Origin: Aquitalea aquatica
Lineage (GTDB): Bacteria > Pseudomonadota > Gammaproteobacteria > Burkholderiales > Chromobacteriaceae
Assembly (NCBI RefSeq): GCF_013911085.1
Contig: NZ_JACERN010000047.1
Location: 1-64,000, forward strand
Direction of reading: 5' to 3'
DNA: 64,000 nt
Shown here one piece after another: positions 16,098 to 58,907 of this stretch (position 1 is its first letter; every line of letters begins with the position of its first letter). Below the pieces are notes generated by a model. That model saw only the letters and a program-made list of their open reading frames with translations. It was not told where the DNA came from and did not search any database. The position numbers were made by a program, and so were the translations under genes.

Positions 16098-16606
16098 GCC
16101 TGTCTTCCCTCCGGCCAATGCAGCCGTGCCATCACCACGCTGTCCACATAGCAGCCATCCTGCAGGATATCCTGGCGCACCACGCCCTCATGCCGAAAGC
16201 CAAAGCGCTCGTACAGCGCAATGGCGCGCTGGTTGTCCTGCTGCGCCATCAGCTCCAGTCGGATCAGCCCCAGCCAGTTATCGGATAGATCGAGCAGTGC
16301 TTGCAGCAGTGCCCGCCCCACGCCCTTGCCTTGCCATTCGTCACGCACCACCAGGAAAATGTCCGCCACATGGCGACAGCGCACCTGCGGCAGAATATTG
16401 AGCCCGGCGCTGGCCATGACCTCGCCGTCGGCCGTACAGGCCACCAGCCAGTGATTGTCCGCCGGCAGGTGCTGTAGCCGGTGCTGCCAGTCGGCAACCG
16501 ACTGGTAAGGCTGTTGCGAGGTATGGCGCACCACGCCTGGAGCGGACTGCAGCTGTGCCATGGCAGCAGCGTCGTCCGGCTCGATACGGCGGATATGAAA
16601 TGACAT
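16094..16606 (-). CDS. GNAT-family N-acetyltransferase (copy 1 of tandem pair)
   Basis: This 170-residue acetyltransferase has motif A RDEWQGKGVGRALL and motif B AIALYERFGFRHEG. It is the upstream member of a tandem duplication with the gene at 15579. The start at 16606 (MSFHIRR) is chosen because AGGAG lies at a good distance; an upstream in-frame extension of 20 residues lacks support. The two genes are translationally coupled. The substrate is unknown. Confidence 0.9.
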   Translation of the reverse strand: MSFHIRRIEPDDAAAMAQLQSAPGVVRHTSQQPYQSVADWQHRLQHLPADNHWLVACTADGEVMASAGLNILPQVRCRHVADIFLVVRDEWQGKGVGRALLQALLDLSDNWLGLIRLELMAQQDNQRAIALYERFGFRHEGVVRQDILQDGCYVDSVVMARLHWPEGRQA

Positions 16607-16752
16607 GCGGCAATGCTCCTGTAAGCAAGTCCTGACCAGATAGCATGACATCATTACAAATAGCACGACTGTTTAACAAGCAGATTCGCCAGACAACAGC
16701 CCCGTTTCATCGCTGAAAACGGCGCTGTCGCTGCTAGTGGCACCTAGCGCAA

Positions 16753-19581
16753 CTAGCGGCTGCGGCAGGCGCGGTCCACCAGGTACATCAGGTTCTGGTA
16801 AGGAATGCCGGAGTTGGCCGACAGGCCGATCTCACAGGTAACGCTATTGGAGAAGCCGCTGCCGCAGTCCTTCACCTGGGCTTTCAAGCCGGTCAGGGCG
16901 CTGGTATTTAGCTCGGGATGGCTGAAGCCCTTGTCACCGGCAAAGCCGCAACAGGTAATGCCTTGCGGCTCGATTACCGTGCTGGCGCAGCGCTTGGCCA
17001 GGGCATTGAGCATGGCGGCCTGACCGGTCTTGCGCATCGAGCACACCACGTGCAAGGCCACCGACTCTGGCTGCGGGGTGAAGGCCAGATGCTCGGCGGC
17101 CACCTCCTGCACGAAGCGGGTGACGTCATACACTTGCAGCTGCTTGCCCTGCAGCCCTTCCAGCATGCTGGCGGTACACACGCCATTGTCGACAATCACC
17201 GGCCAGCGGCCATTGTCACTGGCCTGCATCAAGGCAGCTTCCAGTTCGGCCAGCTTACTGGCGGCCGCGTCCACTGCGCCCTTGGACTTGAACGGTGTGC
17301 CGCAGCACAGGCCATCCATTTGCTGCGGGTAAATCAGCTGGTAACCCGCCTTGCTCAGCACCGAGGCTACCACTTCATTCAGCGGGCGCTGGTCGGGCAG
17401 CGCGGCTGCCGGGGCAAAGGTGCGGGTGAGGCAGGATGGCAAATACACCACCTTGCGCTCGCCCTGTTTGCCACTATCCAGCCGCAGCTTGCTGGCTGCG
17501 CGCGGAAAGTATGGTGTCCAGTAGGGAATACGCCGCCCCACTACCTGGCGCAGGCTGCGCATCAGCACCCCGGTGGCGGCATTGCCGGCCACACTTTGCA
17601 CGGTTTGCAGCGCACGCAAGCCCAGGCGCGCACCCGCAGTTGCTGCACCGTAATGGCCAGCCAGGGTATTGGCCAGTGCCTGGCCGCTATCACTCAGGTT
17701 TTGCTGGCGCAGCTGGCTGGTGAGTGCACCGGTATTGATACCCACCGGGCAGGCGCTCTCGCACAGACCACAGGTGGTACAGGTTTCATCACCGGCAAAC
17801 TGGTAGCGCTCACGCAGCTCATCCAGCCGTGATTTGTCGCTGCCGCTGTGCTCCAGTGCTGCCATTTCGCGGTTGGCAACAATACGCTGGCGCGGGGTCA
17901 AGGTAATCGCGCGGCTGGGGCACATCACTTCGCAGAAACCACATTCAATGCACTTGTCGATCAGGCTATTGGCACTGGGAATCGGCTTCAGGTTGCGAAT
18001 GTGCAGCAGCTTGTCGTGGGTGATGATCACATCCGGATTGAGAATGCCGGCCGGATCAAACAGCGCCTTGATCTCCTGCATGATGCGATAAGCCGCCGGG
18101 CCCCACTCCATTTCGACGAACGGTGCCATATTGCGGCCAGTACCGTGTTCGGCCTTGACCGCGCCTTCATACTCCACCGCCACCAGCTTGCACACGTCCT
18201 CGATAAAGGCTTCGTAGCGCTTGATTTCGGCCTCGCCAGAAAAATTGGGCGTGAATACAAAGTGCAGATTGCCCTCCAGCGCATGGCCGAAGATGATGGC
18301 TTCGTCGTAATGGTATTGGCGGAACAAGGCCTGCAGCTTGAGCGTGCCTTCAGCCAGGTGCTCGATAGGGAATACCACGTCTTCGATGATGACGGTGGTC
18401 TCCGCCGCCCGCATCGCGCCCACACTAGGGAACATGCCTTTGCGGATATTCCACAAGCGGGTGTACTGCTCGGCCACATCGGTGAAATGAATGCCGGACA
18501 GATTGGAAATGGCCGCGATATAGCCGCAGATGGCATTGATCTGCCCGGTCAGCGCCACCGCATCGCGGGCACGGGTTTCGATCAGGATGGCGGCCGCTTC
18601 ATCGCCTAGCGTCTTGAGTTCGGCCGGCACCCCAGCCTTGTTTTCCACCGAGCGCAGGCTGGCGCGGTCCAGCAGCTCGGCCGAGGACACCACGTCCTTG
18701 TGCTGAGCCAGCAGCTGGATGGCATCGCAGGCATCCTTGATGGTGGGAAACAGCACCAATGCCGATGCCTTGTGCGGCAGCTCTTCCACCGTGTGGTAAG
18801 TCACTTCCGATACAAAAGCCAGCGTACCCTCGCTGCCCACGATCAGGTGCAACAGCATGTCCAGCGGGTCGGCAAAATCCACCAGCGCATTCAGGCTGTA
18901 GCCGGTGGTGTTTTTCATCTTGTACTTGCGGCGGATGCGCGCTTCCAGCTCGCCATCGGCGCGAATACGCGCCGCCAGCGCGGCGATGCCGTCCAGCAAG
19001 CCGGCATGCGATTGGCGGAAGGCCGCCACACTGCCCGCATCGCCGGTATCCAGCACCGCGCCATCAGCCAGCACCAGCCGCAGGCTCTTGATGGTCTGGT
19101 AGGTATTCTGCGCGGTTCCGCAGCACATGCCGCTGGAGTTGTTGCTGACAATGCCACCTATCATGGCGGAGTTGATGGTGGCCGGATCGGGACCGATCTT
19201 GCGTCCGAACGGCAGCAGGGCCGCATTGGCGGCGGCACCGATCACCCCCGGCTGCAAGCGGATGGCACGGCCATCATCCAGCACTTGCAGGGCTTTCCAG
19301 CCGTGGCTGGCCACCACCAGGATGGAATCGCTCACTGCCTGGCCGGATAGCGAAGTGCCGGCGGCACGGAAGGTCACCGGCAGCCTGTGTGCTGCAGCCT
19401 GGGCCAGTACGGCTTGCACCTCGGCTTCGTCATGGGTCTGGATGACGATCTTCGGCACCAGCCGGTAACAGGAAGCATCTGTCCCGTAAGCCAGGGTGGA
19501 CAGCGGATCAGTGAACACCCGCTTGGGGTCGATCACTTCGACAATGGCTTGATGAAACAGCCGATAAGCACCTTGCAGCAT
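16753..19581 (-). CDS. FAD/Fe-S oxidoreductase, probable quinone-linked D-lactate dehydrogenase
   Basis: This 942-residue multidomain protein has an FAD-binding type-4 domain (about 35-240, with RAAGTSLSGQA and IGGIVSNNSSG) and an FAD-oxidase C-terminal domain (about 250-520). Two 4Fe-4S clusters follow (CIECGFCEVMCPS and CTTCGLCESACP), then C-terminal CCG domains (LCCGTPFKSKG and ITCCGFAGDKG). This order fits Dld-II type respiratory D-lactate dehydrogenases, which pass electrons to the quinone pool at the membrane. A D-2-hydroxyglutarate dehydrogenase is the main alternative. The start at 19581 has GGAG nine bases upstream. Confidence 0.85.
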   Translation of the reverse strand: MLQGAYRLFHQAIVEVIDPKRVFTDPLSTLAYGTDASCYRLVPKIVIQTHDEAEVQAVLAQAAAHRLPVTFRAAGTSLSGQAVSDSILVVASHGWKALQVLDDGRAIRLQPGVIGAAANAALLPFGRKIGPDPATINSAMIGGIVSNNSSGMCCGTAQNTYQTIKSLRLVLADGAVLDTGDAGSVAAFRQSHAGLLDGIAALAARIRADGELEARIRRKYKMKNTTGYSLNALVDFADPLDMLLHLIVGSEGTLAFVSEVTYHTVEELPHKASALVLFPTIKDACDAIQLLAQHKDVVSSAELLDRASLRSVENKAGVPAELKTLGDEAAAILIETRARDAVALTGQINAICGYIAAISNLSGIHFTDVAEQYTRLWNIRKGMFPSVGAMRAAETTVIIEDVVFPIEHLAEGTLKLQALFRQYHYDEAIIFGHALEGNLHFVFTPNFSGEAEIKRYEAFIEDVCKLVAVEYEGAVKAEHGTGRNMAPFVEMEWGPAAYRIMQEIKALFDPAGILNPDVIITHDKLLHIRNLKPIPSANSLIDKCIECGFCEVMCPSRAITLTPRQRIVANREMAALEHSGSDKSRLDELRERYQFAGDETCTTCGLCESACPVGINTGALTSQLRQQNLSDSGQALANTLAGHYGAATAGARLGLRALQTVQSVAGNAATGVLMRSLRQVVGRRIPYWTPYFPRAASKLRLDSGKQGERKVVYLPSCLTRTFAPAAALPDQRPLNEVVASVLSKAGYQLIYPQQMDGLCCGTPFKSKGAVDAAASKLAELEAALMQASDNGRWPVIVDNGVCTASMLEGLQGKQLQVYDVTRFVQEVAAEHLAFTPQPESVALHVVCSMRKTGQAAMLNALAKRCASTVIEPQGITCCGFAGDKGFSHPELNTSALTGLKAQVKDCGSGFSNSVTCEIGLSANSGIPYQNLMYLVDRACRSR

Positions 19582-48688: not shown

Positions 48689-50281
48689 CTAGACCTCGTA
48701 CAGCTCGATCAGTGTCGGCTGCCGGCGTTCACATGCGGCCTGCACCAACGGGGCCAGTGCCTCGCCCACTGACAGTCGCTGCGCCTGCCAGCCATAGCTG
48801 CGCGCCAGTGTGACAAAGTCGGGATTGTGCAGATCCACTCCCAGCGTAGCCACTTCAACGGCCTGCATGGCGGCCTTGATTTCGCCGTAGCCGCCATTGT
48901 TCAACAACACCAGCACCACGCAGGCCCCGCACTCCAGCACGCTGCCCAGTTCGGCCAGGGTGAACTGGACGCCACCATCACCCGCCAGGCAGATGACCGG
49001 CTCACCGCTGGCCAACGCCGCACCAAGCGCTGCCGGCAGACCATAACCCAGCGCGCCAAAACCCACCGAGGCATTGAACCAGCGCTGCACCGCCGGTGCG
49101 GCATAGCCCATATTGCCGGCATACACCTGGCGGGTAGAGTCACCCACTATCAGCGCCTGTGGCACAGCATCACGCAGCTGCTGCAGCAAGGCGATATCCT
49201 GCCGCATGCCGGCGGGCAGCTCTTTCCATGCGGCCTGTGCAGTCTGCTGCACCCGCCCCGCCTCCCAGCGGGAGGCCACCGCACCGGCCGGCCACTGCTC
49301 CAGCAACTGCCGCAAGCTGGCTGCGCAGTCGCCCAGCAGGGGCAGGTCGGCCGTACGGTTGCGGAACAGTTGCTGAGCATCGATATCCAGCCGGATCAAC
49401 ACCCCCGGAATGGCAAAGCCACCATCGACATAGGCGTCGTAATCGGTCTGCCCCAGTTCGGTGCCCAGTGCCAGTACCACATCGCTGTCGCGCATCAGCT
49501 GCCGCGCCGCTTGGCTGGAGGCGCTGCAGGACAAGCCCAGCGGATGCTCCGGCGGCAGCACGCCACGGGCATTGATGGTCATCAACGTTGGCGCTTGCAG
49601 GCGCTCGGCCAGTTGACGGATTTCCGCTGCCGCCGCCACCGCCCCGCCGCCGACCAGCAACAGCGGACGGCGCGCGCCATGCAATAGCCGGGCCGCCTGC
49701 GCCAGCGCCGCCGCCTCGGCCACACTGCGCCGCAGCCGTGGCAGCCGGGCAGGCACCGCTGGCAGCCCATCGGCCGCCGCCGACATCAGGTCGAGCGGAA
49801 TCTCGATATGCACCGGCCGGGGCCGCGCACCATCGAACACAGCAAAGGCCCGTGCCAACACCTGTGGCAATTCTTGCGGGCGGGTAATGGTGTGGCTGAA
49901 GGCGCTGACCTGACTGGCCAGTGCCTGCTGATTCGGTAGCTCATGCAAATGGCCGTTGCCCGAGCCCAGCTTGCCCAGTGCGTTGACGCCGGAAATCACC
50001 AGTATGGGAATGGAGTCGGCATAGGCCTGCCCCATGGCGGTCAGGATATTGGTCAGGCCGGGGCCGGTAATCACCAGACACACCCCCGGCTTGCCACTGA
50101 CTCGCGCATAGCCATCCGCCATGAAGCCCAGGCTCTGCTCGTGTCGCGCCGTCACATGACGGATGGGGCTGTCCGCCAGCCCGCGATACAGCTCCACCGT
50201 GTGCACGCCAGGAATGCCGAATACCGTGTCCACGCCATAGCCGGCCAATAATTCGGTCAGATAAACACCTACTGTTTTCAT
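48689..50281 (-). CDS. aruI: 2-Ketoarginine (5-guanidino-2-oxopentanoate) decarboxylase AruI
   Basis: AruI is a thiamine-diphosphate enzyme that decarboxylates 2-ketoarginine to 4-guanidinobutyraldehyde, the second step of the arginine transaminase pathway. The 530-residue protein has the acetolactate-synthase-like three-domain layout. The activating Glu is Glu48 (TARHEQSLGF), and the cofactor motif CLAGDGGVQFTLAEL...NNGGYGEIK lies at about 433-465. The assignment to AruI rather than acetolactate synthase rests on its place directly after aruH. GGAG precedes the ATG. Confidence 0.85.
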   Translation of the reverse strand: MKTVGVYLTELLAGYGVDTVFGIPGVHTVELYRGLADSPIRHVTARHEQSLGFMADGYARVSGKPGVCLVITGPGLTNILTAMGQAYADSIPILVISGVNALGKLGSGNGHLHELPNQQALASQVSAFSHTITRPQELPQVLARAFAVFDGARPRPVHIEIPLDLMSAAADGLPAVPARLPRLRRSVAEAAALAQAARLLHGARRPLLLVGGGAVAAAAEIRQLAERLQAPTLMTINARGVLPPEHPLGLSCSASSQAARQLMRDSDVVLALGTELGQTDYDAYVDGGFAIPGVLIRLDIDAQQLFRNRTADLPLLGDCAASLRQLLEQWPAGAVASRWEAGRVQQTAQAAWKELPAGMRQDIALLQQLRDAVPQALIVGDSTRQVYAGNMGYAAPAVQRWFNASVGFGALGYGLPAALGAALASGEPVICLAGDGGVQFTLAELGSVLECGACVVLVLLNNGGYGEIKAAMQAVEVATLGVDLHNPDFVTLARSYGWQAQRLSVGEALAPLVQAACERRQPTLIELYEV

Positions 50282-50308
50282 GCTTGCATGCTCCGCACTC
50301 GCTAAAGT

Positions 50309-51493
50309 TCAGGCCGGCTGCACCTGCAGGCTGGCAACAAAGCTGGCAATCCGGCGGCAGGCTTCCGCCAGCCGGGCCTCGTCCAGCACAAAGCCCAGCC
50401 GCAGAAAGCCACTGGCGATATCACCGAAAGCGCTGGCATCCAGCACCGCCACGCCGGTCTGGCGGAACAAGCGCCAGGCAAAATCCTCGGCAGCCAGGCC
50501 GCTGTCACGTACGTCGATCAGCATGAACATGCCGGCCTCGGGCAACTGGCAGCGCAGGCCGGGAATATTGCTCAGCAGCCGATAGCAGACATCGCGGCGG
50601 CGGCGATAGGTTTCGCGCATGGCCGGCACGATGCTGTCCCGCTGCAGTACCGCCAGCAGCGCAGCCTCCTGGATAAAGCCTGGCAGGCCATACAACATGC
50701 ACAGCGCCAGCCGGCCCAGATGCCCCACCAACTCGGCCGGGGCCACCACCCAGCCCATGCGCCAGCCAGCCATTGCATGGGATTTGGACAAGCTGCCGAT
50801 AGTGACGGTGCGCTCGGCCATGCCGGGCAAGCTGACCATGCTCAGATGCGGCTGCTCGAAAGTCAGACCGGCATACACCTCGTCCGACACCACCCACAAG
50901 TCGTGCTGCTGCGCCAGCGCGGCGACCTCTTCCAGCTCGGCCCGGCTCATCACCGCCCCGCTGGGATTGTTGGGCGTGGCGAGGAAAATGGCACGGGTAC
51001 GCGGGGTGATGGCCGCCGCCAGCGCACCGGGGCGCAGATGAAAGCCGCGCTCCACATCCACCGCTACCGGCACCAGTGTTGCACCGCTGGCGCGGATGCT
51101 GGCCTCATACGTCAGGTACATCGGCTCGGGCACCAGCACCTCGTCGCCGGGCTGGCACAGGCAGAGTGCCACGGCGAAAAGGCCGTTCTGCGCGCCGGCC
51201 ACCACGATGACCTGTTCCTCGCTCACCATCTGCCCGGTTTGCTCGCTGTGCATGGCCGCCAATGCCTGGCGCAGGGCCGGCCTGCCACTGACATCGCTGT
51301 AGTGGGTGTCTCCCGCCAGCAAGGCGCTGACGGCCCGTTCGCTGATGCTGGCCGGGGTGGCAAAGTCCGGGTCGCCTACGCTGAGGATGAATACCTCCTC
51401 GCCACGCGCCTGGGCCTGCTGCGCGGCATAGTGGATTTGCCAGGCGTCGGTGCGTTTGCCGGCCAGCCGGTCTACCAGACTGGAATAATGCAT
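50309..51493 (-). CDS. aruH: Arginine:pyruvate transaminase AruH
   Basis: AruH moves the amino group of L-arginine to pyruvate, giving 2-ketoarginine and alanine. The 394-residue fold-type I aminotransferase shows the PLP lysine Lys237 in GSLSKSHAMAGWRMG. It also has the substrate-side region ILSVGDPDFATP and NNPSGAVMSRAELEE. The N-terminal stretch and these blocks match my recollection of Pseudomonas AruH closely. AAGGAG precedes the ATG. It lies between the transporter genes and aruI in one operon. Confidence 0.85.
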   Translation of the reverse strand: MHYSSLVDRLAGKRTDAWQIHYAAQQAQARGEEVFILSVGDPDFATPASISERAVSALLAGDTHYSDVSGRPALRQALAAMHSEQTGQMVSEEQVIVVAGAQNGLFAVALCLCQPGDEVLVPEPMYLTYEASIRASGATLVPVAVDVERGFHLRPGALAAAITPRTRAIFLATPNNPSGAVMSRAELEEVAALAQQHDLWVVSDEVYAGLTFEQPHLSMVSLPGMAERTVTIGSLSKSHAMAGWRMGWVVAPAELVGHLGRLALCMLYGLPGFIQEAALLAVLQRDSIVPAMRETYRRRRDVCYRLLSNIPGLRCQLPEAGMFMLIDVRDSGLAAEDFAWRLFRQTGVAVLDASAFGDIASGFLRLGFVLDEARLAEACRRIASFVASLQVQPA

Positions 51494-51517
51494 GCTGCAC
51501 TCCTTGAACTAGAGGGG

Positions 51518-52213
51518 CTAGAAAGCGTTCCGGACTGGCAGGCGCATCTCCAGCCGCTTGAACAGTCGCTCGATCAGCATGGCCAGCAGCAGATAAATCA
51601 ATGCCATGACCAGCAGGGGTTCATACGTGAGGAAGGTCTGATTGCGGATCAGGTTGGCCACGCCCAGCGCATCCATCACCGCCACGGTGGAAGCCAGCGC
51701 AGTGGACTTGAGCAGCATCACCGACTCGCCCGCCAGCGTGGGCAGCAGGATGAAGATGGCCCGTGGCAGCCAGATGCGGCGGATCATCAGCAGCCGCGGC
51801 ATGCCCAGCGCCCGCGCGGCTTCCAGCTCACCCTTGGGCACGCCACGCAAACCACCCTTGATCACCTCGCCGACATAGCCGGCCACGCTCAGCGTGAGTG
51901 CCAGCGCCACATACCAGAAACCTTCGCGCAGATAAGGCCACAGCCAGCTGTCACGCAGCAGCGGAAAACTGACAAACAGGCTGCCCACGCCGTAATACAT
52001 CACGTAAATCTGCACCAGCAGGGGCGTGCCACGGATCAGATTGGTAAAGGACAGACTGAGCCAGGCAATGAAAGGCTGGCGCGACAGCCGGCCAAACCCT
52101 ACCAGCACCGCCAGCGCAAAACCCAGCGTCCCGGCAATCAGCAATAGCTGCAGGGTGGTCATCACCCCCAGCACCATCATCCGGCCATACTCTCCCAGCC
52201 ATTCGAAATTCAT
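51518..52213 (-). CDS. Polar amino acid ABC transporter permease (HisM type)
   Basis: This 231-residue inner-membrane permease has about five helices and the EAA loop GELEAARALGMPRLLMIRR that contacts the ATPase. It pairs with the second permease 14 bp upstream. The family includes histidine/arginine/ornithine (HisQMP) importers. Linkage to aruHI supports arginine or a related basic amino acid as substrate. Confidence 0.9.
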   Translation of the reverse strand: MNFEWLGEYGRMMVLGVMTTLQLLLIAGTLGFALAVLVGFGRLSRQPFIAWLSLSFTNLIRGTPLLVQIYVMYYGVGSLFVSFPLLRDSWLWPYLREGFWYVALALTLSVAGYVGEVIKGGLRGVPKGELEAARALGMPRLLMIRRIWLPRAIFILLPTLAGESVMLLKSTALASTVAVMDALGVANLIRNQTFLTYEPLLVMALIYLLLAMLIERLFKRLEMRLPVRNAF

Positions 52214-52227
52214 GGTGTGCTCCCCGT

Positions 52228-52938
52228 TCAGTGCGCTGGCATCCAGCGGCTGATACGCCGGTCAAACCGGCTGAACAGCAGGTTGGACAACAGGGTGATC
52301 AGCAGATACACCGCAGCCACCGCCAGATAAAACAGCAAATATTCGCGAGTGGAACCGGCCGCCTGCTTGGTGGTGAACAGCAGCTCGTTGTAACCCACCA
52401 CGCTGATCAGGGCGCTATCCTTGATCAGGATCAGCCACAGATTGGACAGCCCACCCAGCGCGTAGGGCAGCATTTCCGGCAGGATGATGCGCTGCACGAT
52501 CATGTGGCGCGGGCAGCCAAAGGCGCGGGCAGCTTCCAGATGGCCGGTGGGGATGGACTGCACCGCGCCCCGGATGATCTCCGCGGCGTAGGCACCCTGC
52601 ACAATGCCCAGCACCACCACGGCGGCCATGAAGCCGTTGATGGGGGCCGGTCCCTGATCCAGCTGCGCCAGCACCCAGTTGATCAGGTCGCCGCCGGCGT
52701 AATACAGCAGCAGGATCAGCAGCAGCTCCGGCACTGCCCGGCACACCGTGGTGTAGGCATTGGCCAGCCGCAACAGCAGCCCGTGGCGGGTCATCTTGAT
52801 CATGGCCACCAGCAGGCCGATACACAGCCCTACTGAAAATGCGCCCAGTGAAATCTGCAGCGTCACCAGCGCGCCCTGCAGCAAGGCGCAGCCCCAGTCC
52901 AGCACCACGGCATCGAATGCCTTGGTCAACCATTCCAT
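52228..52938 (-). CDS. Polar amino acid ABC transporter permease (HisQ type)
   Basis: This 236-residue inner-membrane permease has the EAA loop GHLEAARAFGCPRHMIVQR. The start at 52938 (MEWLTKAF) is preferred because AAGGA lies before it; a 13-residue upstream extension (52977) lacks support. It is the first of the two permease genes after the binding-protein gene. Confidence 0.9.
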   Translation of the reverse strand: MEWLTKAFDAVVLDWGCALLQGALVTLQISLGAFSVGLCIGLLVAMIKMTRHGLLLRLANAYTTVCRAVPELLLILLLYYAGGDLINWVLAQLDQGPAPINGFMAAVVVLGIVQGAYAAEIIRGAVQSIPTGHLEAARAFGCPRHMIVQRIILPEMLPYALGGLSNLWLILIKDSALISVVGYNELLFTTKQAAGSTREYLLFYLAVAAVYLLITLLSNLLFSRFDRRISRWMPAH

Positions 52939-53016
52939 GCCATTTCCTTTCGCATAAGACCTGCTCGTCCTGACCACGAGGCAGGGCAGCCCAGGCAGCC
53001 CCTGCCCTGCGCCGGC

Positions 53017-53787
53017 TTATTTGACGGAAATGTCCACCTTGAAATATTTCTTCTGGATGGCGTTGAAGCTGCCGTCCTGGCGCAGCTTGAGGATGGCATC
53101 GTCAAACTTGCGCTTGAGCACGACATCGCTCTTGCGCAAACCCGCCCCTACGCCGGGACCGAAAATGGGATCGCGCGGTGCCATGCCCTTGGACTCCAGC
53201 GCGGCACCATCCTTGCTCTTGAGGAAATCGCTGGCAGCCAGCGCGTCCAGCAGCATCACATCCACCCGGCCGGCGGCCATGTCGGCATTCAGCTCGTCCT
53301 GGGTGTTGTAATACTTGATACTGGCTACCTGCCCATAACGCTTCTTGATGTAGTCGGCATTGACGGTGGACGACTGCACCCCGATCACCTTGCCCTTCAG
53401 CCCTTCAGGCGTCAGTGTCAGCTTGCTGGCCTTGGGGGCCACGTATTCGGCATCGGTGTAGTAATAAGGCTTGCTGAAGGCAATGACCTTTTCCCGCTCC
53501 GGGGTAATCGACATGGAATTGAAGATGACGTCGATCTTCTTGCTGTTGAGCGAGGGGATGATGCCGTCCCAGGCCACCTCGGTGATCTGGCACTTTTCCT
53601 TGATTTCCTGGCAGATGCGCTGCACCAGCTCGACTTCAAAGCCGCTCCACTGGCCGGAGCTTTGCTTGATGGAAAATGGCGGATAAGGCTCGGCGGCAAT
53701 ACCCACCTTCAGCGGGCCGGCCAGTGTGGCGGCAGCCGGCAGGCTACAGGACAAGGCAAGGCAAATACGCAGCATTGTGGTTTTCAT
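53017..53787 (-). CDS. Polar amino acid ABC transporter substrate-binding protein
   Basis: This 256-residue periplasmic binding protein of the LAO/HisJ class has a signal peptide at residues 1-22. The binding-protein start is KVGIAAEPYPPFSIK, with WSGFEVELVQRIC and the ligand-site stretch NSMSITPEREKVIAFSKPYY. The residues point to a basic or polar amino acid, consistent with arginine. The start at 53787 has GGAG before it. It follows the ATPase gene. Confidence 0.92.
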   Translation of the reverse strand: MKTTMLRICLALSCSLPAAATLAGPLKVGIAAEPYPPFSIKQSSGQWSGFEVELVQRICQEIKEKCQITEVAWDGIIPSLNSKKIDVIFNSMSITPEREKVIAFSKPYYYTDAEYVAPKASKLTLTPEGLKGKVIGVQSSTVNADYIKKRYGQVASIKYYNTQDELNADMAAGRVDVMLLDALAASDFLKSKDGAALESKGMAPRDPIFGPGVGAGLRKSDVVLKRKFDDAILKLRQDGSFNAIQKKYFKVDISVK

Positions 53788-53925
53788 GTCTATCTCTCCA
53801 TAGGGTGGGTGAAGCGATGCGGACGGGTACGGCCAACAACAGAAATGCGTGATCACTACAGCGCAGCTGGCCCCGTGCCGCCTTGTACCAGCGGCTGAAG
53901 TGGCCACAGCGCGTGCCATGCGCAG

Positions 53926-54735
53926 TCAGGCACGGCAGAACTGCGCATTGACGAACTGGCGGCAGCGCTCACTGCCGGGGTTTTCAAATACCTGCCGTGC
54001 CGTGCCGGCTTCTTCGATACAGCCCTGGTGCAGAAACATCACCTTGCTGGACACATCGCGGGCAAAGGCCATCTCATGGGTTACCAACACCATGGTGCAG
54101 CCATCCTGTGCCAGATCGCGGATCACCTTGAGCACCTCACCCACCAGTTCCGGGTCCAGCGCCGAGGTCGGCTCGTCAAACAGCATCACCGAAGGCCGCG
54201 TCGCCAGGGCACGGGCAATAGCTACCCGCTGCTGCTGACCACCGGACAGAAAAGCCGGATAGCTGTGGCGCTTCTCCGCCATGCCCACCTTGGCCAGCAG
54301 CGCTTCGGCCAGGGCGATGGCTTCGCCGCGTGGCTGGCGCAGCACGCGAATCGGCACCTCGATCAGGTTTTCCAGCACGGTCATGTGTGGCCACAGATTG
54401 AAGCTCTGGAACACCATGCCCAGCCGGGTGCGCATGCGGTCCACCTGGGGCGGATCGGCCAGCACGGTCTGGCCATGGCGGTTGGTCTTCAGAGCGACCT
54501 CTTCGCCGGCGATCAGTACCTGGCCGCTGTCGGGAACCTCCAGCATGTTCATGCAGCGCAGCAAGGTACTCTTGCCAGAACCGCTGGCACCGATCAGCGA
54601 CACTACGTCGCCGGTCTGCGCGGTAAAGGACACGCCCTTGAGTACTTCCTGCGCGCCAAATCGCTTGCGCAGATTGCGGATGTCGATGATCGGCGCGACA
54701 GCAGCCGCGCCTTGGGGCATGAAGGTATCGGACAA
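53926..54735 (-). CDS. Polar amino acid ABC transporter ATP-binding protein
   Basis: This 269-residue ATPase powers the import system with Walker A GASGSGKST, Q-loop VFQSFNLWPH, signature LSGGQQQRVAIARALA and Walker B VMLFDEPTSALDPE. The start is taken as TTG at 54735, because GGGGAG lies seven bases before it and the sigma54 start site (about 54796) lies only 61 nt upstream. The ATG at 54720 is an alternative. The longer ORF to 54795 begins before the promoter start site and is rejected. It is the first gene of the six-gene aru/transport operon. Confidence 0.9.
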   Translation of the reverse strand: MSDTFMPQGAAAVAPIIDIRNLRKRFGAQEVLKGVSFTAQTGDVVSLIGASGSGKSTLLRCMNMLEVPDSGQVLIAGEEVALKTNRHGQTVLADPPQVDRMRTRLGMVFQSFNLWPHMTVLENLIEVPIRVLRQPRGEAIALAEALLAKVGMAEKRHSYPAFLSGGQQQRVAIARALATRPSVMLFDEPTSALDPELVGEVLKVIRDLAQDGCTMVLVTHEMAFARDVSSKVMFLHQGCIEEAGTARQVFENPGSERCRQFVNAQFCRA

Positions 54736-54806
54736 GCTGGCTCTCCCCTGAGTGAACAGCAGCACGGGACAGATCGTGGTGCTGCATGGTGGCATGCACT
54801 GCCTTC

Positions 54807-54822
54807 AGCACGTTTCATGCCA
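54807..54822 (-). promoter_or_regulatory. Sigma54 -24/-12 promoter of the arginine transport/aru operon
   Basis: On the minus strand TGGCATGAAACGTGCT matches the TGGCAYR-N4-YTGCW pattern with GG and GC in exact register. The predicted start is about 54796, 61 nt before the ATP-binding-protein start codon. AACTATT occurs at 54841-54847 and 54871-54877 (30 bp apart) and, inverted, at 54900-54906; these are candidate activator sites. Confidence 0.85.
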
Positions 54823-55049
54823 CCTGCCATCCCAGATAAAAACTATTAAAAACAAGGCACTACAATAATCAACTATTGCTGATTTCCTGCATTTGCGTGA
54901 ATAGTTGCGAAACTGCCAGAAATTCAGCAGCCCGCCATGGTCAGCATCGCGCCCCGGCTCACCCACTAGGCGTACAGATTGTCCCCAAGCAGGAGAAGAC
55001 GTGGTATCAATAGGCAAAACAAGAAGAAGTCACATCGGAGGAGGAGTTC
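54823..55049. promoter_or_regulatory. Divergent control region between the aru operon and the sigma54 regulator
   Basis: No ORF here is credible. It includes repeats of AACTATT/AATAGTT (54841, 54871, 54900) and CAATA-N6-TATTG at 54863-54878. GGAGGAG stands before the regulator ATG at 55050. It probably carries the regulator's upstream activator sites and its own promoter. Confidence 0.55.
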
Positions 55050-56480
55050 ATGGACAGCCAACTGGCGTCTGCCATTTCCATTTTCATGGAATTTCTGGAC
55101 GCACTGCCCCAGCCGGTCGCTATCGTCGATGCTGCGGGTAACTATGTGTATTACAACGAAGAAAGCGCCCACATCGACGATTACCAGGCCGCCCATGCCC
55201 TGGGTAATCCGGTGCTGCAGATCTATCCGCAACTGAACCAGCACAGCAGCACCCTGTTGCAGGCCGCGTTCAAGGGCAAGCGCTATCACAACCAGTACCA
55301 GCTGTACTACAACCCCGGCGGCAATCCGGTACACCAGGTGCATACCACCCTGCCCTTGCAGAACAGCGGCGGAGACATCATTGGTGCCATCGAGATTTCC
55401 CGCGACCTGTCAGTCATCAACCACCTGCATGAGCAGTTCATCGACCTGCAGCAAAAGCTGCACGGCCAGCAGCCACCGGGAGATGATGGCATCGTCACCT
55501 GCGAGCCGGAAATGCAGAAGCTGATTCATCAGGCACAACGGCTGGCCAAGACCGATGTACAAGTGCTGATCTACGGTGAAACCGGCACCGGCAAGGAGCT
55601 GTTCGCCCGGCTGCTGCACACCCACAGCGAACGGGCACGCCAGCCCTTCCTGGTGCTCAACTGCGCCGCCATGCCCGAGCCGCTGTTTGAAAGTGCCCTA
55701 TTCGGCACCGTGAAGGGCGCCTTTACCGGCGCCGAAGACCGCAAGGGCCTGCTGGAAAGCGCCCATGGCGGCACGCTGTTTCTGGACGAACTCAATTCGA
55801 TGCCGATGGCGGTGCAGGGCAAGCTGCTACGCGCGCTGCAGGAACAGACCTTCCGCCGCGTCGGCTCCAGCCAGGAGTGCCGGGTGGATGTGCGCATCAT
55901 CGCCGCCACCAACGAGTCGCCGCAAACCATGCTGGACAAGCAGCGCATTCGCCCCGACCTGCTCTACCGGCTGAATGTGGGCTATCTCACCATTCCGCCG
56001 CTGCGCGAACGCAAGCGCGACATCCCGCTGCTGGCCCAAGCCTTTCTGGAAAAAAACGGCAAGATCACCGGCAACCGCGTCAAACGCATCAGCCCAGCCG
56101 TACTGGAGCGGCTACAGCGGCACCGCTGGCCGGGCAATGTGCGCATGCTGGAAAACATCATCCTGCGCAGCCTGATCTTCTGTGAAAATGGCGACGAGCT
56201 GGATTTCATCCTGCTGGAAGAAGACGAGCAACAGCTGGAGCCCCTGCCCCCCTGCACCACCACGACGGCGCTCCCGTCTCCACCGGCTGTGGACAACGAA
56301 GCCTCAGCCTCGCTGGAAGCCCAGGTAGCCGCTTACGAACGCACCCTGTTGCTGCACTACCTCAAGCGCTATCCGAATCTGTCCGAAGCCGCGCGCCAGT
56401 GCGGTCTGCCACGCGCCACCCTGCAATACAAGATGAAAAAGTACGGCATCCGGCTGGCCCAGCAGGTTATCGACGGTTGA
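55050..56480 (+). CDS. Sigma54-dependent transcriptional regulator (PAS-AAA-HTH)
   Basis: This 476-residue enhancer-binding protein has a PAS-like sensory domain (about 10-125), probably detecting a small molecule. The AAA+ domain (about 150-375) has Walker A GETGTGKE (176-183), the sigma54-contact loop GAFTGA (223-228) and Walker B TLFLDELN. A C-terminal Fis-type HTH follows (LSEAARQCGLPRATLQYKMKK). The layout resembles RocR, the arginine regulator of Bacillus. It is divergent from the aru operon and convergent with the carnitine monooxygenase operon, both of which have sigma54 promoters, so it is the likely activator of both. GGAGGAG precedes the ATG. Confidence 0.88.
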   Translation: MDSQLASAISIFMEFLDALPQPVAIVDAAGNYVYYNEESAHIDDYQAAHALGNPVLQIYPQLNQHSSTLLQAAFKGKRYHNQYQLYYNPGGNPVHQVHTTLPLQNSGGDIIGAIEISRDLSVINHLHEQFIDLQQKLHGQQPPGDDGIVTCEPEMQKLIHQAQRLAKTDVQVLIYGETGTGKELFARLLHTHSERARQPFLVLNCAAMPEPLFESALFGTVKGAFTGAEDRKGLLESAHGGTLFLDELNSMPMAVQGKLLRALQEQTFRRVGSSQECRVDVRIIAATNESPQTMLDKQRIRPDLLYRLNVGYLTIPPLRERKRDIPLLAQAFLEKNGKITGNRVKRISPAVLERLQRHRWPGNVRMLENIILRSLIFCENGDELDFILLEEDEQQLEPLPPCTTTTALPSPPAVDNEASASLEAQVAAYERTLLLHYLKRYPNLSEAARQCGLPRATLQYKMKKYGIRLAQQVIDG

Positions 56481-56489
56481 ATGCAACAA

Positions 56490-56521
56490 GCCGGTGCCTC
56501 CCCGCAAGGGAAGACACCGGC
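56490..56521. terminator. Hairpin between convergent regulator and reductase genes
   Basis: GCCGGTG pairs with CACCGGC, with a shorter CCC/GGG stem inside, between the two stop codons. It lacks a T run, so it is only a weak or bidirectional terminator candidate. Confidence 0.4.
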
Positions 56522-56554
56522 CGCACACCGCGAACCTTGCCAGATCGGGTGGAT

Positions 56555-57505
56555 TTACAGATCCAGCACCAGCCGCTCACAGGCAGCACGTGACACACAG
56601 AGCATGACCCGGTCCTGCGCCGCCTGCTCCGCCGCACTCAGATACTGGTCGCGATGCAGGGCCGTCCCTGCCAGCAAGCGGGTCTCGCAAGTGCCGCAAT
56701 AGCCTTCACGGCACAGGCTTTCGACCTGGATGCTGGTTTGCCGCTGAATGGCGTCCAGCATGCTTTCGTCAGCAGCCACCCGCACTTCGCAGCCGGAACG
56801 CGCCAGTTGCACAACAAACTCCGCTCCGCCCGGACTATCCGGCAGGCTAAAGCGCTCGATGTGCAAGCGTCCCTGCTGCGCCACATCTCCTCCGGCTGCT
56901 TCCACCGCAGCAATCAGACGCTGCGGCCCGCAGGCATACACATGGCTTGTGGCGCCCACACCGGCCAGCAGCGCCGCCACATCCAGCCTTGCCCCCTGGC
57001 TGGCATCATACAGCCGCACCGATGCATGCCCGGCCAGCTCCTCGACAAAGGCTGCCTCAGCCGGCGAGCGGTAAGCGTAGTGCAGCTGGAAATCCTGCTC
57101 CCGGCCGCGCATGGCCGCCATATGGGCGATAAAGGGGGTAATGCCGATACCGGCGGCAATGAACAGCAAGGATTCCGCTCCCGGCTGCAGGGCAAACAGG
57201 TTGGCCGGGGTGGTGAGTTCCAGCCCGGCACCCGGCTGCAGGCCATGCAGCCAGGCCGATCCGCCACGCCCACTTGCCTCAAGCTTTACCGCAATATGCA
57301 GGCTGCTGCCGTCATAGCTGGCATCCAGCAGCGAATAGGCATTGACCGGACTATCCGCGCTGCTGCCGGCCCGCAGCAGCAAGTGGCTGCCAGAGCTAAA
57401 TGCAGGATAGCTCGCGTCAGCCGGCTGCAGGGTCAGCGCCCTGATATCCCGTGCCAGCCACTGCGTCGCCAGCAGGTGGCCTTTCATCCAGCGAATCTGG
57501 CTCAT
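56555..57505 (-). CDS. yeaX: Carnitine monooxygenase reductase component CntB/YeaX
   Basis: This 316-residue electron-transfer protein passes electrons from NAD(P)H via FMN and a [2Fe-2S] cluster to the Rieske oxygenase next door. The N-terminal flavin/NAD(P) reductase part (about 1-225) has YSLLDAS, the loop IAAGIGITPFIAHMAAM and ACGP. The C-terminal plant-type ferredoxin domain has CREGYCGTCETRLL and a final Cys in MLCVS. This order and length (E. coli YeaX about 321 residues) fit CntB. It lies 24 bp after cntA. Confidence 0.85.
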   Translation of the reverse strand: MSQIRWMKGHLLATQWLARDIRALTLQPADASYPAFSSGSHLLLRAGSSADSPVNAYSLLDASYDGSSLHIAVKLEASGRGGSAWLHGLQPGAGLELTTPANLFALQPGAESLLFIAAGIGITPFIAHMAAMRGREQDFQLHYAYRSPAEAAFVEELAGHASVRLYDASQGARLDVAALLAGVGATSHVYACGPQRLIAAVEAAGGDVAQQGRLHIERFSLPDSPGGAEFVVQLARSGCEVRVAADESMLDAIQRQTSIQVESLCREGYCGTCETRLLAGTALHRDQYLSAAEQAAQDRVMLCVSRAACERLVLDL

Positions 57506-57529
57506 GCTGCCTCCTTGTTCCGCATGGTT

Positions 57530-58654
57530 TTACTGACGGTAGCATTGCGCCACCATGCGGTGGAAATAGGCGATGCCGTGCTCGCTGATGCCACTGAGGC
57601 TATCGTCCACCATGATGCGCCCCTGGCCGCGGTAACCGCGCGATTGCAGACCGCGCTGCACGCTTTCCACCAGTCGCAGATCCTCCGGGCGGAAGGTCTG
57701 GGTCGCCCAGGTGATAAAATTGCGCTGCTCCGGCGTCACCTCCTTGCTGGGCATCAGCACCTCGTAGTACTGCACCGTCAGCCCCGCCGACACCGGGTAC
57801 TCGTAGATCACCGTCATGGTGTCATCGCCCGGCACCACGTTGAACATGACACAGGGCCATACCCAATAACCGCTGAAAGCCTGGTTGGCGACATCGCCAT
57901 CAAAGGAATATCCCTGGCTGGATGATTTGGAATGGCCGTGTTGCAAGGTCCAGCGGCCATGGAAGGTATGGGTGTAACTGGCGCTGTCCACCGAACTGGA
58001 AAAGCCGGGATGGGCCGGCGCACAGTGGTAGCACTCCATGTAGTTGTCGACAATCACCTTCCAGTTGGCCGGCGTATCGGTAATCGTGCGCGAAGCCACC
58101 TGCAGGCTGGCCACATTGGGACAGACGCTGTGCAGATGCTCGGCCAGCCCGGCCAGCGCGGTTTCCACGGCTTCGGCCTGCATGTCCATATTGATGAAGA
58201 CAAAGCCGCAGTATTCCGCCACCTGTACTGGTGTCAGCCGGTAATCTGCCTTGTCGAAATGGGCCACATTTTCGCAATTGCGCGCCACCGCCAGCTCGCC
58301 ATCCAGCTTGAAGGTCCAGGCGTGATAAGGACAGCTGACGACATTCTTGGCAATGCCGCTGTCTTGCAGCAACTCGTGCCCGCGGTGTGGACAGACATTG
58401 TAGAAAGCCCGCAACACACCATCCCGCCCGCGTACCACCAACAGGTTTTCTCCGGCGATGCGGCGTGTGACATAGGCGTTGTTTTCTGCCAGTTCGCTGC
58501 CGTGGCAGAAACACAGCCAGGACTTGGCAAAAATCTGCTGTTTTTCGTAGTCGAACACCGCATCAGAAGTGTAATAGCGAGCAGGAAGCGTGTAAGCGTG
58601 GCTCATGTCCTGGCAAAAATCATCCGGCAAATCCATTCCGATATCGCGCTGCAT
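57530..58654 (-). CDS. yeaW: Carnitine monooxygenase oxygenase component CntA/YeaW
   Basis: CntA cleaves L-carnitine to trimethylamine and malic semialdehyde with O2 and electrons from CntB. The 374-residue protein has the same length as E. coli YeaW and, as I recall it, extensive identity. The Rieske cluster uses Cys88 and His90 (VCPHRGH) and Cys108 and His111 (SCPYHAW). The mononuclear iron region is DNYMECYHCAPAHP with His210 and His215, and Glu207 corresponds to the bridging Glu of CntA. The start at 58654 has AGGAG upstream. A sigma54 promoter lies 71 bp upstream. Other quaternary-amine oxygenases are less likely. Confidence 0.85.
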   Translation of the reverse strand: MQRDIGMDLPDDFCQDMSHAYTLPARYYTSDAVFDYEKQQIFAKSWLCFCHGSELAENNAYVTRRIAGENLLVVRGRDGVLRAFYNVCPHRGHELLQDSGIAKNVVSCPYHAWTFKLDGELAVARNCENVAHFDKADYRLTPVQVAEYCGFVFINMDMQAEAVETALAGLAEHLHSVCPNVASLQVASRTITDTPANWKVIVDNYMECYHCAPAHPGFSSSVDSASYTHTFHGRWTLQHGHSKSSSQGYSFDGDVANQAFSGYWVWPCVMFNVVPGDDTMTVIYEYPVSAGLTVQYYEVLMPSKEVTPEQRNFITWATQTFRPEDLRLVESVQRGLQSRGYRGQGRIMVDDSLSGISEHGIAYFHRMVAQCYRQ

Positions 58655-58724
58655 CACAGTCTCCTGGGTTGGCTTGCTCAGACGCTGGTCACCAAGCGGC
58701 ACCAGTTGAGCGTGCTGAGCATTT

Positions 58725-58740
58725 AGCAGCTTGCATGCCA
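58725..58740 (-). promoter_or_regulatory. Sigma54 -24/-12 promoter of the carnitine monooxygenase operon
   Basis: On the minus strand TGGCATGCAAGCTGCT matches TGGCAYR-N4-YTGCW in exact register and is nearly identical to the aru operon promoter. The predicted start (about 58714) lies 60 nt before the cntA ATG. Upstream, GTCATT (58759-58764) and AATGAC (58780-58785) form an inverted repeat that could bind the activator. Confidence 0.82.
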
Positions 58741-58907
58741 GCCACAAAATAAAGTCAAGTCATTGTATTTATTAAAAATAATGACAATGCCGCAGGAGAA
58801 AATTTCAGGCAACCACGGGAAAAATCATGAATCTGCCAGTTTTCCGGCAGCCAGAAATAGCAAAACCGGACCTGGGTCCGGTGATGTCAGGAGTAATACG
58901 CGATGGT

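Follow-up and report, generated by a model that had tools for sequence, protein, structure and literature searches.

A single sigma54-dependent activator probably controls two adjacent operons in a 64,000-nucleotide stretch of the Aquitalea aquatica genome (contig NZ_JACERN010000047.1, positions 1 to 64,000; hereafter the window). One operon is predicted to encode a basic amino acid type transporter with AruH-like and AruI-like enzymes, the other a CntA-like Rieske oxygenase and its reductase. The reading favored here, to which a probability of roughly 0.55 is given, is that the activator binds an 18-bp palindrome found at both promoters and switches on both operons, which would most likely make one pathway. 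A sequence-only reading of this DNA had placed the regulator between an 'arginine' and a 'carnitine' operon. The genes are found as stated, and shared regulation of both operons by one activator is well supported by the comparison of promoters and gene orders. The regulatory features, in window coordinates, are:

55050-56480, plus strand: PAS-AAA-HTH (helix-turn-helix) sigma54 activator, from domain models and GAFTGA
54807-54822, minus strand: sigma54 -24/-12 box of the transporter-AruH-AruI operon, TGGCATGAAACGTGCT, by sequence match
54913-54930: candidate palindromic upstream activator site on the transporter (arg) side, CTGCCAGAAATTCAGCAG on the plus strand; top site of the 64-kb window and itself a training site
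58725-58740, minus strand: sigma54 -24/-12 box of the Rieske operon, TGGCATGCAAGCTGCT, by sequence match
58833-58850: candidate palindromic upstream activator site on the Rieske side, CTGCCAGTTTTCCGGCAG on the plus strand; second-best site of the window, outside the training set

The two boxes have 13 of their 16 bases in common, which bears out the earlier description of them as near-identical. The palindrome (consensus near TGCCGRAWWWYYGGCA) is absent from the sequence-only reading and was revealed by comparing the intergenic regions of 12 clusters. It starts 108-112 bp upstream of the -24 element, in gene orientation. On the arg side it is present in 13 of 13 clusters, including that of Leeia oryzae, which lies outside the training set. 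On the Rieske side it is present in seven of the 13, namely those of G000 (the window's genome), G005, G084, G017, G030, G011, and G020; in G011 and G020 this signature precedes a dehydrogenase gene that heads the Rieske operon. A matrix trained on nine arg-side sites only was used to scan 420 bp upstream of each Rieske operon, with box and site 100-117 bp apart, and 2000 dinucleotide shuffles served as the chance control for each promoter. The seven Rieske operons score 29.9-37.0, and none of 2000 shuffles reaches any of these scores. The promoter of what is likely the true cntA, in the window's genome, scores 4.3, which 1266 of 2000 shuffles reach. The test is only partly blind, because its choice came from viewing all sequences.

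Box and palindrome within the allowed gap form a combined signature that has exactly two matches in the window's genome, both at these promoters. Across 61 genomes of the family there are 14 matches, of which 13 fall at these two promoters in seven genomes (two each in G000, G005, G011, G017, G020, and G084, one in G030) and one elsewhere (G015); the reversed pattern, run as a control over the same genomes, gives none. The arg-side site of G030 deviates from the pattern, which also misses the arg-side boxes of the Chromobacterium group, ending in TGCC. This search is not blind, because the pattern was written after the sites had been seen.

The activator has the makeup of a sigma54 enhancer-binding protein. 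An AAA+ domain (Sigma54_activat, 220 bits) contains the exact GAFTGA string, confirming the intact loop reported earlier, and is joined by a sensor domain (PAS_4, 51 bits, cut-off 23) and a Fis-type C-terminal HTH (HTH_8, 29 bits, cut-off 22). At the sequence level, its candidate targets carry both a -24/-12 box and an upstream site. It is the only PF00158 match listed on its contig, and the earlier remark that no second activator is seen nearby holds in the window for sigma54 activators. The genome as a whole encodes 12 full-strength sigma54-activator domains (at least 215 bits). The operons could thus be neighbors by history only, with the Rieske operon answering to another of the 12, and the Rieske operon does have a different likely regulator in six of the 13 clusters. 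This explanation is nonetheless very unlikely, as the two promoters share the palindrome and its spacing, a combination that the pattern used finds nowhere else in the genome.

The same gene block recurs in relatives. Nine genes in one order and orientation are found in 12 of the 61 family genomes, counting G036 and G064, where AruI is cut by the contig end; extra open reading frames may intervene, for instance at L036 7661-8071. In Leeia oryzae the full set is present, but the oxygenase-reductase pair is inverted and separated from the activator by an AraC gene. The oxygenase (at least 69% identity) and AruI (at least 66%, or a cut copy) occupy the same 12 of 61 genomes and never occur apart. 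UbiH and PpsA, which neighbor the block in the window, were found only at the G005 locus among the loci searched; the block therefore stays together in differing surroundings. The wider class and order sets are samples, in which candidates of some genomes were only partly scored. Among 369 genomes sampled from the class, only the window's own has an oxygenase match of E 1e-140 or better, and among 399 sampled from the order one with at least 70% identity was found only in G000, G005, and G499, the last probably Leeia.

Several observations weigh against the favored reading. The remaining six of the 13 Rieske operons score 3.0-7.4, values that 483-1355 of 2000 shuffles reach. Sites resembling those of integration host factor are weak, with no mismatch in three of 20 promoters and at most one in 10 of 20. 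The clusters are not independent, because they come from few genera. Beyond the family, Burkholderia, Pseudomonas, and Chromohalobacter hold AruH-type modules without the oxygenase. Finally, site strength can depart from activator similarity: the G024 site (17.6 bits), whose activator is 37% identical to that of the window in the DNA-binding region, outscores the G043 site (15.2 bits; 60%). The proposal of one regulator for both operons is supported for the window's lineage, where palindrome, box, near-constant spacing, and gene block coincide. It does not extend to the six clusters in which the signature is missing on the Rieske side and an AraC gene is found there instead. On the gene orders by which the sequence-only reading could be refuted, the answer is mixed: no family cluster parts the two operons, but in these six the likely regulator of the Rieske operon differs.

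The AraC gene, with a GbdR-like profile, adjoins the oxygenase gene in five genomes of the Chromobacterium group and in Leeia, and these six clusters are exactly the six without a Rieske-side site. In the other seven clusters tblastn at 1e-15 finds no such gene. The Rieske operon of the six likely underwent a regulator swap, to judge from this coincidence, and the five Chromobacterium-group cases may represent one event. Two scanned AraC proteins score 276 and 314 bits with the GbdR model (cut-off 480). One Pseudomonas AraC also matches the model below cut-off (244 bits), and because it scores likewise, a GbdR-like match cannot separate betaine from arginine sensing.

The palindrome tends to follow the activator, if loosely, a relation that is one of correlation rather than of binding. 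The activators of the 13 clusters share 65-100% identity with the DNA-binding region of the window's. An orthologous activator in another gene context, that of G075 (60% identical, 63% in the DNA-binding region; helix PRTTLQYK), is accompanied by a 19.6-bit palindrome and a sigma54 box, which precede a gene for a DokD-type ornithine/lysine decarboxylase; this is counted in favor of shared control. The G043 activator is also in another context, and its palindrome is weaker and closer. The G024 and G033 (33%) activators both adjoin a SpeF-type ornithine decarboxylase gene, a type classified for G024 and judged from a similar start for G033. By the first matrix, the G024 site scores as it does despite being the unlike-looking palindrome ATGACG..CGTCAT, and G033 has no site at 11 bits or more. 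The exact GAFTGA string is missing from the G024 activator homologue (L039 8451-9860).

The genes that the activator is predicted to control are all on the minus strand:

48689-50281, minus strand: AruI-like thiamine-diphosphate 2-oxo acid decarboxylase (NF005712, 735 bits, cut-off 500)
50309-51493, minus strand: AruH-like pyridoxal phosphate aminotransferase (Aminotran_1_2, 230 bits; identities to Pseudomonas AruH)
51518-52213, minus strand: HisM/ArtM-type ATP-binding cassette (ABC) permease, under the cut-offs of named models
52228-52938, minus strand: HisQ/ArtQ-type ABC permease, under the cut-offs of named models
53017-53787, minus strand: Lys/Arg/Orn-type periplasmic binding protein (TIGR01096, 216 bits, cut-off 256)
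53926-54735, minus strand: HisP-type ABC ATPase (HisP, 330 bits, cut-off 466)
56555-57505, minus strand: CntB/VanB-type reductase with a C-terminal 2Fe-2S domain (Fer2, 49 bits; 47% identical to the reductase adjoining the likely CntA)
57530-58654, minus strand: CntA-like Rieske oxygenase of the Ala315 clade, from identity and pocket residues

ATPase, binding protein, both permeases, AruH, and AruI likely form one operon running from 54735 to 48689. Its intergenic gaps, counted from AruI, are 27, 24, 14, 75, and 138 bp, computed with 52941 as the start of the second permease and 54731 as that of the ATPase, whose start codon is uncertain (TTG at 54735 or ATG at 54720). The top Protein Data Bank (PDB) matches of the binding protein are Lys/Arg/Orn-binding proteins. 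Oxygenase and reductase run from 58654 to 56555 with 24 bp between them.

In the proposed mechanism, the activator would bind the palindrome, which lies some 110 bp ahead of the -24/-12 promoter of each operon, and sense a cationic amino acid or its product, upon which sigma54 polymerase would start both operons together. The ABC transporter would import the cationic amino acid, the AruH-like enzyme would transaminate it, and the AruI-like enzyme would decarboxylate the resulting 2-oxo acid. A PuuC-like dehydrogenase would oxidize the aldehyde to an omega-cationic carboxylate, whose C-N bond the oxygenase and reductase would cleave. The placement of the dehydrogenase gene hints at a link between the two halves. 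In G011 and G020 the oxygenase operon begins, after the signature, with a PuuC-like aldehyde dehydrogenase gene (623-632 bits, cut-off 850); in G084 such a gene ends the transporter operon, after AruI; and the dehydrogenases are 71-72% identical. This switching between operons, together with the co-occurrence of oxygenase and AruI in the 61 genomes, favors a single route, and the two operons most likely form one pathway in which the oxygenase acts on the acid from the dehydrogenase. The window itself counts against this, as no aldehyde dehydrogenase match is found in it and the best copy in the genome, 59% identical, lies on another contig.

The sequence-only reading had assigned carnitine demethylation to the Rieske operon, and this is doubtful. 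The window oxygenase is a close Rieske-family relative of CntA/CntB (PDB 6y8j), with the same catalytic triad, Glu205, and Tyr203 for the cation (PMC7948474, as excerpted), but it is only 59.5% identical to Acinetobacter baumannii CntA and has other partner genes and another regulator. A second CntA-like copy in the same genome (L058 4487-9413, contig C2) is 73.4% identical to A. baumannii CntA and adjoins a BCCT transporter (821 bits, cut-off 647) and a reductase 47% identical to the window's; this is likely the true carnitine locus. By pairwise identity, rather than by an oxygenase tree, the window oxygenase falls outside the likely CntA group, which has a separate locus in G000, G005, G011, and G020. 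The bridging Glu205 and the triad are conserved in all 12 cluster oxygenases, which share Y203, E205, H208, H213, D323, Y225, N270, Y295, F258, and F319. Position 315 is Ala in 12 of 12 (and, by eye, in Leeia) and Tyr in CntA itself and in six of six of its group; the complete carnitine pocket is thus not found in the clade. Tyr315 is the sole substrate contact named in the excerpted text of PMC7948474 that is not conserved, and the same excerpt reports activity reduced or lost in all alanine mutants of the CntA binding site. Phe247 to Tyr is a further pocket change, and twelve positions are fixed differences between the clade and the CntA group (12 versus 7 sequences).

These data also bear on the model of the sequence-only reading, in which the activator coordinates two separate nutrients as nitrogen sources, arginine through uptake and transamination and carnitine or another betaine through cleavage. 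Shared sites at both promoters would suit it, as would the conserved CntA catalytic residues and an AruI that passes the model for 5-guanidino-2-oxopentanoate decarboxylase. No second CntA-like protein was found at the search threshold in G084, G017, G030, and the five Chromobacterium-group clusters, which is also compatible with it; in those eight genomes no second copy can be named the carnitine enzyme, because only the window clade is found at that threshold. The explanation is doubtful all the same, since the oxygenase lies outside the likely CntA group with its own locus in four genomes, Ala315 is invariant, the only transporter that the cluster encodes in the window belongs to the basic amino acid type, and the co-occurrence of the operons and the movement of the dehydrogenase suit one pathway better.

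If the two operons do form one pathway, the leading guess for its substrate, a tentative one, is N6,N6,N6-trimethyllysine, degraded by a full aerobic route under one sigma54 activator. It would pass through delta-valerobetaine to trimethylamine and glutarate semialdehyde. With this substrate every gene would have a role, and the oxygenase retains its contacts for cation and carboxylate. In Chromohalobacter (L136 7123-16950), AruI and AruH flank a gene for a choline-type binding protein (245 bits, cut-off 379); nearby are a GbdR-like AraC gene, genes of an ABC transporter for basic amino acids, and one for a TmpA-type trimethylammonium dioxygenase (440 bits, cut-off 400). AruHI-like genes may here be linked with trimethylammonium genes for a second time, though the AruI of this locus is separate from the window's in the tree. 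That tree (89 rows, quick method) places 18 rows with window-type AruH, including the window, in one group (support 98), while three rows that also have window-type AruH, two of Chromohalobacter and one on a long branch, fall outside it; the grouping tracks kinship and is uninformative on substrate. Among the best-matching open-licence papers listed, titles and abstract beginnings contain no account of this cluster or of a trimethyllysine transaminase route.

Several findings speak against trimethyllysine. AruH and AruI resemble arginine-type enzymes, and the window-type AruH of Burkholderia is joined by the acyl-CoA gene set seen beside Pseudomonas AruH/AruI; as proof of betaine chemistry these genes were dropped for that reason. 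A DDAH-like (dimethylargininase-type) gene directly follows AruI in three clusters (L081 11693-12454, L032 17085-17912, and L033 around 2544), which would point to guanidino chemistry; the two scanned, of L081 and L032, are below family cut-offs. The glutarate gene csiD exceeds its cut-off in three of the 61 genomes and does not track the cluster; as a marker it is uninformative.

Close behind as a substrate guess, if unlikely, comes arginine via 4-guanidinobutyrate. The earlier reading had proposed arginine breakdown, and AruI does pass the relevant model, which makes arginine a candidate substrate; NF005712 is also passed by the AruI of a canonical-looking layout and by other AruI proteins. 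In an arginine pathway, itself unlikely, the oxygenase would cleave 4-guanidinobutyrate, which has a gamma-butyrobetaine-like shape, to guanidine and succinate semialdehyde. The arginine-like AruH, AruI, and ABC proteins fit such a pathway, the aldehyde dehydrogenase would yield 4-guanidinobutyrate, the DDAH-like genes agree with it, and Tyr315 to Ala and Phe247 to Tyr would reshape a pocket that keeps its carboxylate and cation contacts. However, at least one ureohydrolase-family gene, assigned at family level only, lies elsewhere in each of the 12 cluster genomes and could perform the usual hydrolysis; Rfam at gathering scores finds no riboswitch in the window and four cluster loci; and related non-quaternary amines are not CntA substrates according to the excerpted text of PMC7948474. 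Among 91 AruI loci (12 cluster loci plus L081-L159, excluding L080, a repeat of L032, and counting L082, which repeats the L036 genome), window-type AruH exceeds 200 bits in 24, a ureohydrolase exceeds 100 bits in 28, and none has both. Excluding arginine for want of a guanidinobutyrase was considered and dropped, as none of 14 AruH loci, including five with the aru layout, has a ureohydrolase, and the 12 cluster genomes all encode members of that family at other loci.

Known systems resemble parts of the arrangement. RocR of Bacillus subtilis is a PAS-type sigma54-family activator that serves several basic amino acid operons through upstream sites. The window would be comparable in having one activator of this type for several such operons with upstream sites, but RocR serves an arginase route, in contrast to the transaminase and oxygenase seen here. 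In Pseudomonas aeruginosa, AruH and AruI form the arginine transaminase pathway, which is under two-component control; their aminotransferase and 2-oxo acid decarboxylase belong to the same families as those of the window. Pseudomonas loci of the aru layout (five of 14) have AruH and AruI 52-56% and 42-43% identical to the window's, respectively, with acyl-CoA genes and no oxygenase match adjoining. A second Pseudomonas AruH module (L180, L182, L184, L185, and L191) is closer to the window's AruH (58-62%) and stands with ABC transporter genes of the basic amino acid type; AruI is present in two of the five, and four of the five genomes also have an aru-type operon.

Bacteria are known to convert trimethyllysine to delta-valerobetaine by means of DavB and DavA (PMC11773067, PMC8976029, as excerpted). 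This route shares start compound and intermediate with the guessed pathway but employs a monooxygenase and an amidase instead of a transaminase and a decarboxylase, and the excerpted accounts describe no later oxygenase freeing trimethylamine.

Two plain annotations thereby become a regulon that can be tested and whose candidate binding site is defined, and one half of a conserved cluster has likely undergone a regulator swap. The CntA-like oxygenase has a changed pocket, and its substrate may be predictable from partner genes. If the trimethyllysine reading is true, the route would act on methylated lysine freed by protein turnover, serve as a source of trimethylamine and a sink for delta-valerobetaine distinct from DavB/DavA, and bear on two compounds studied in human metabolism (excerpts of PMC11773067 and PMC8976029). 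If 4-guanidinobutyrate is the substrate, the cluster would add to the bacterial sources of guanidine, a group with few reported members (excerpted text of PMC11018352).

The only Rfam matches at gathering scores in the loci searched are the tRNA genes of L034 in G017, seven in succession just past AruI (16244-17042). Short intergenic inserts were noticed by eye between the sigma54 box and the ATPase gene in L050 and L052 and near the activator start in L036 and L051; they have inverted ends (GGGGACCTCGAAA... and AAGAACCTGTT...) and resemble small mobile repeats.

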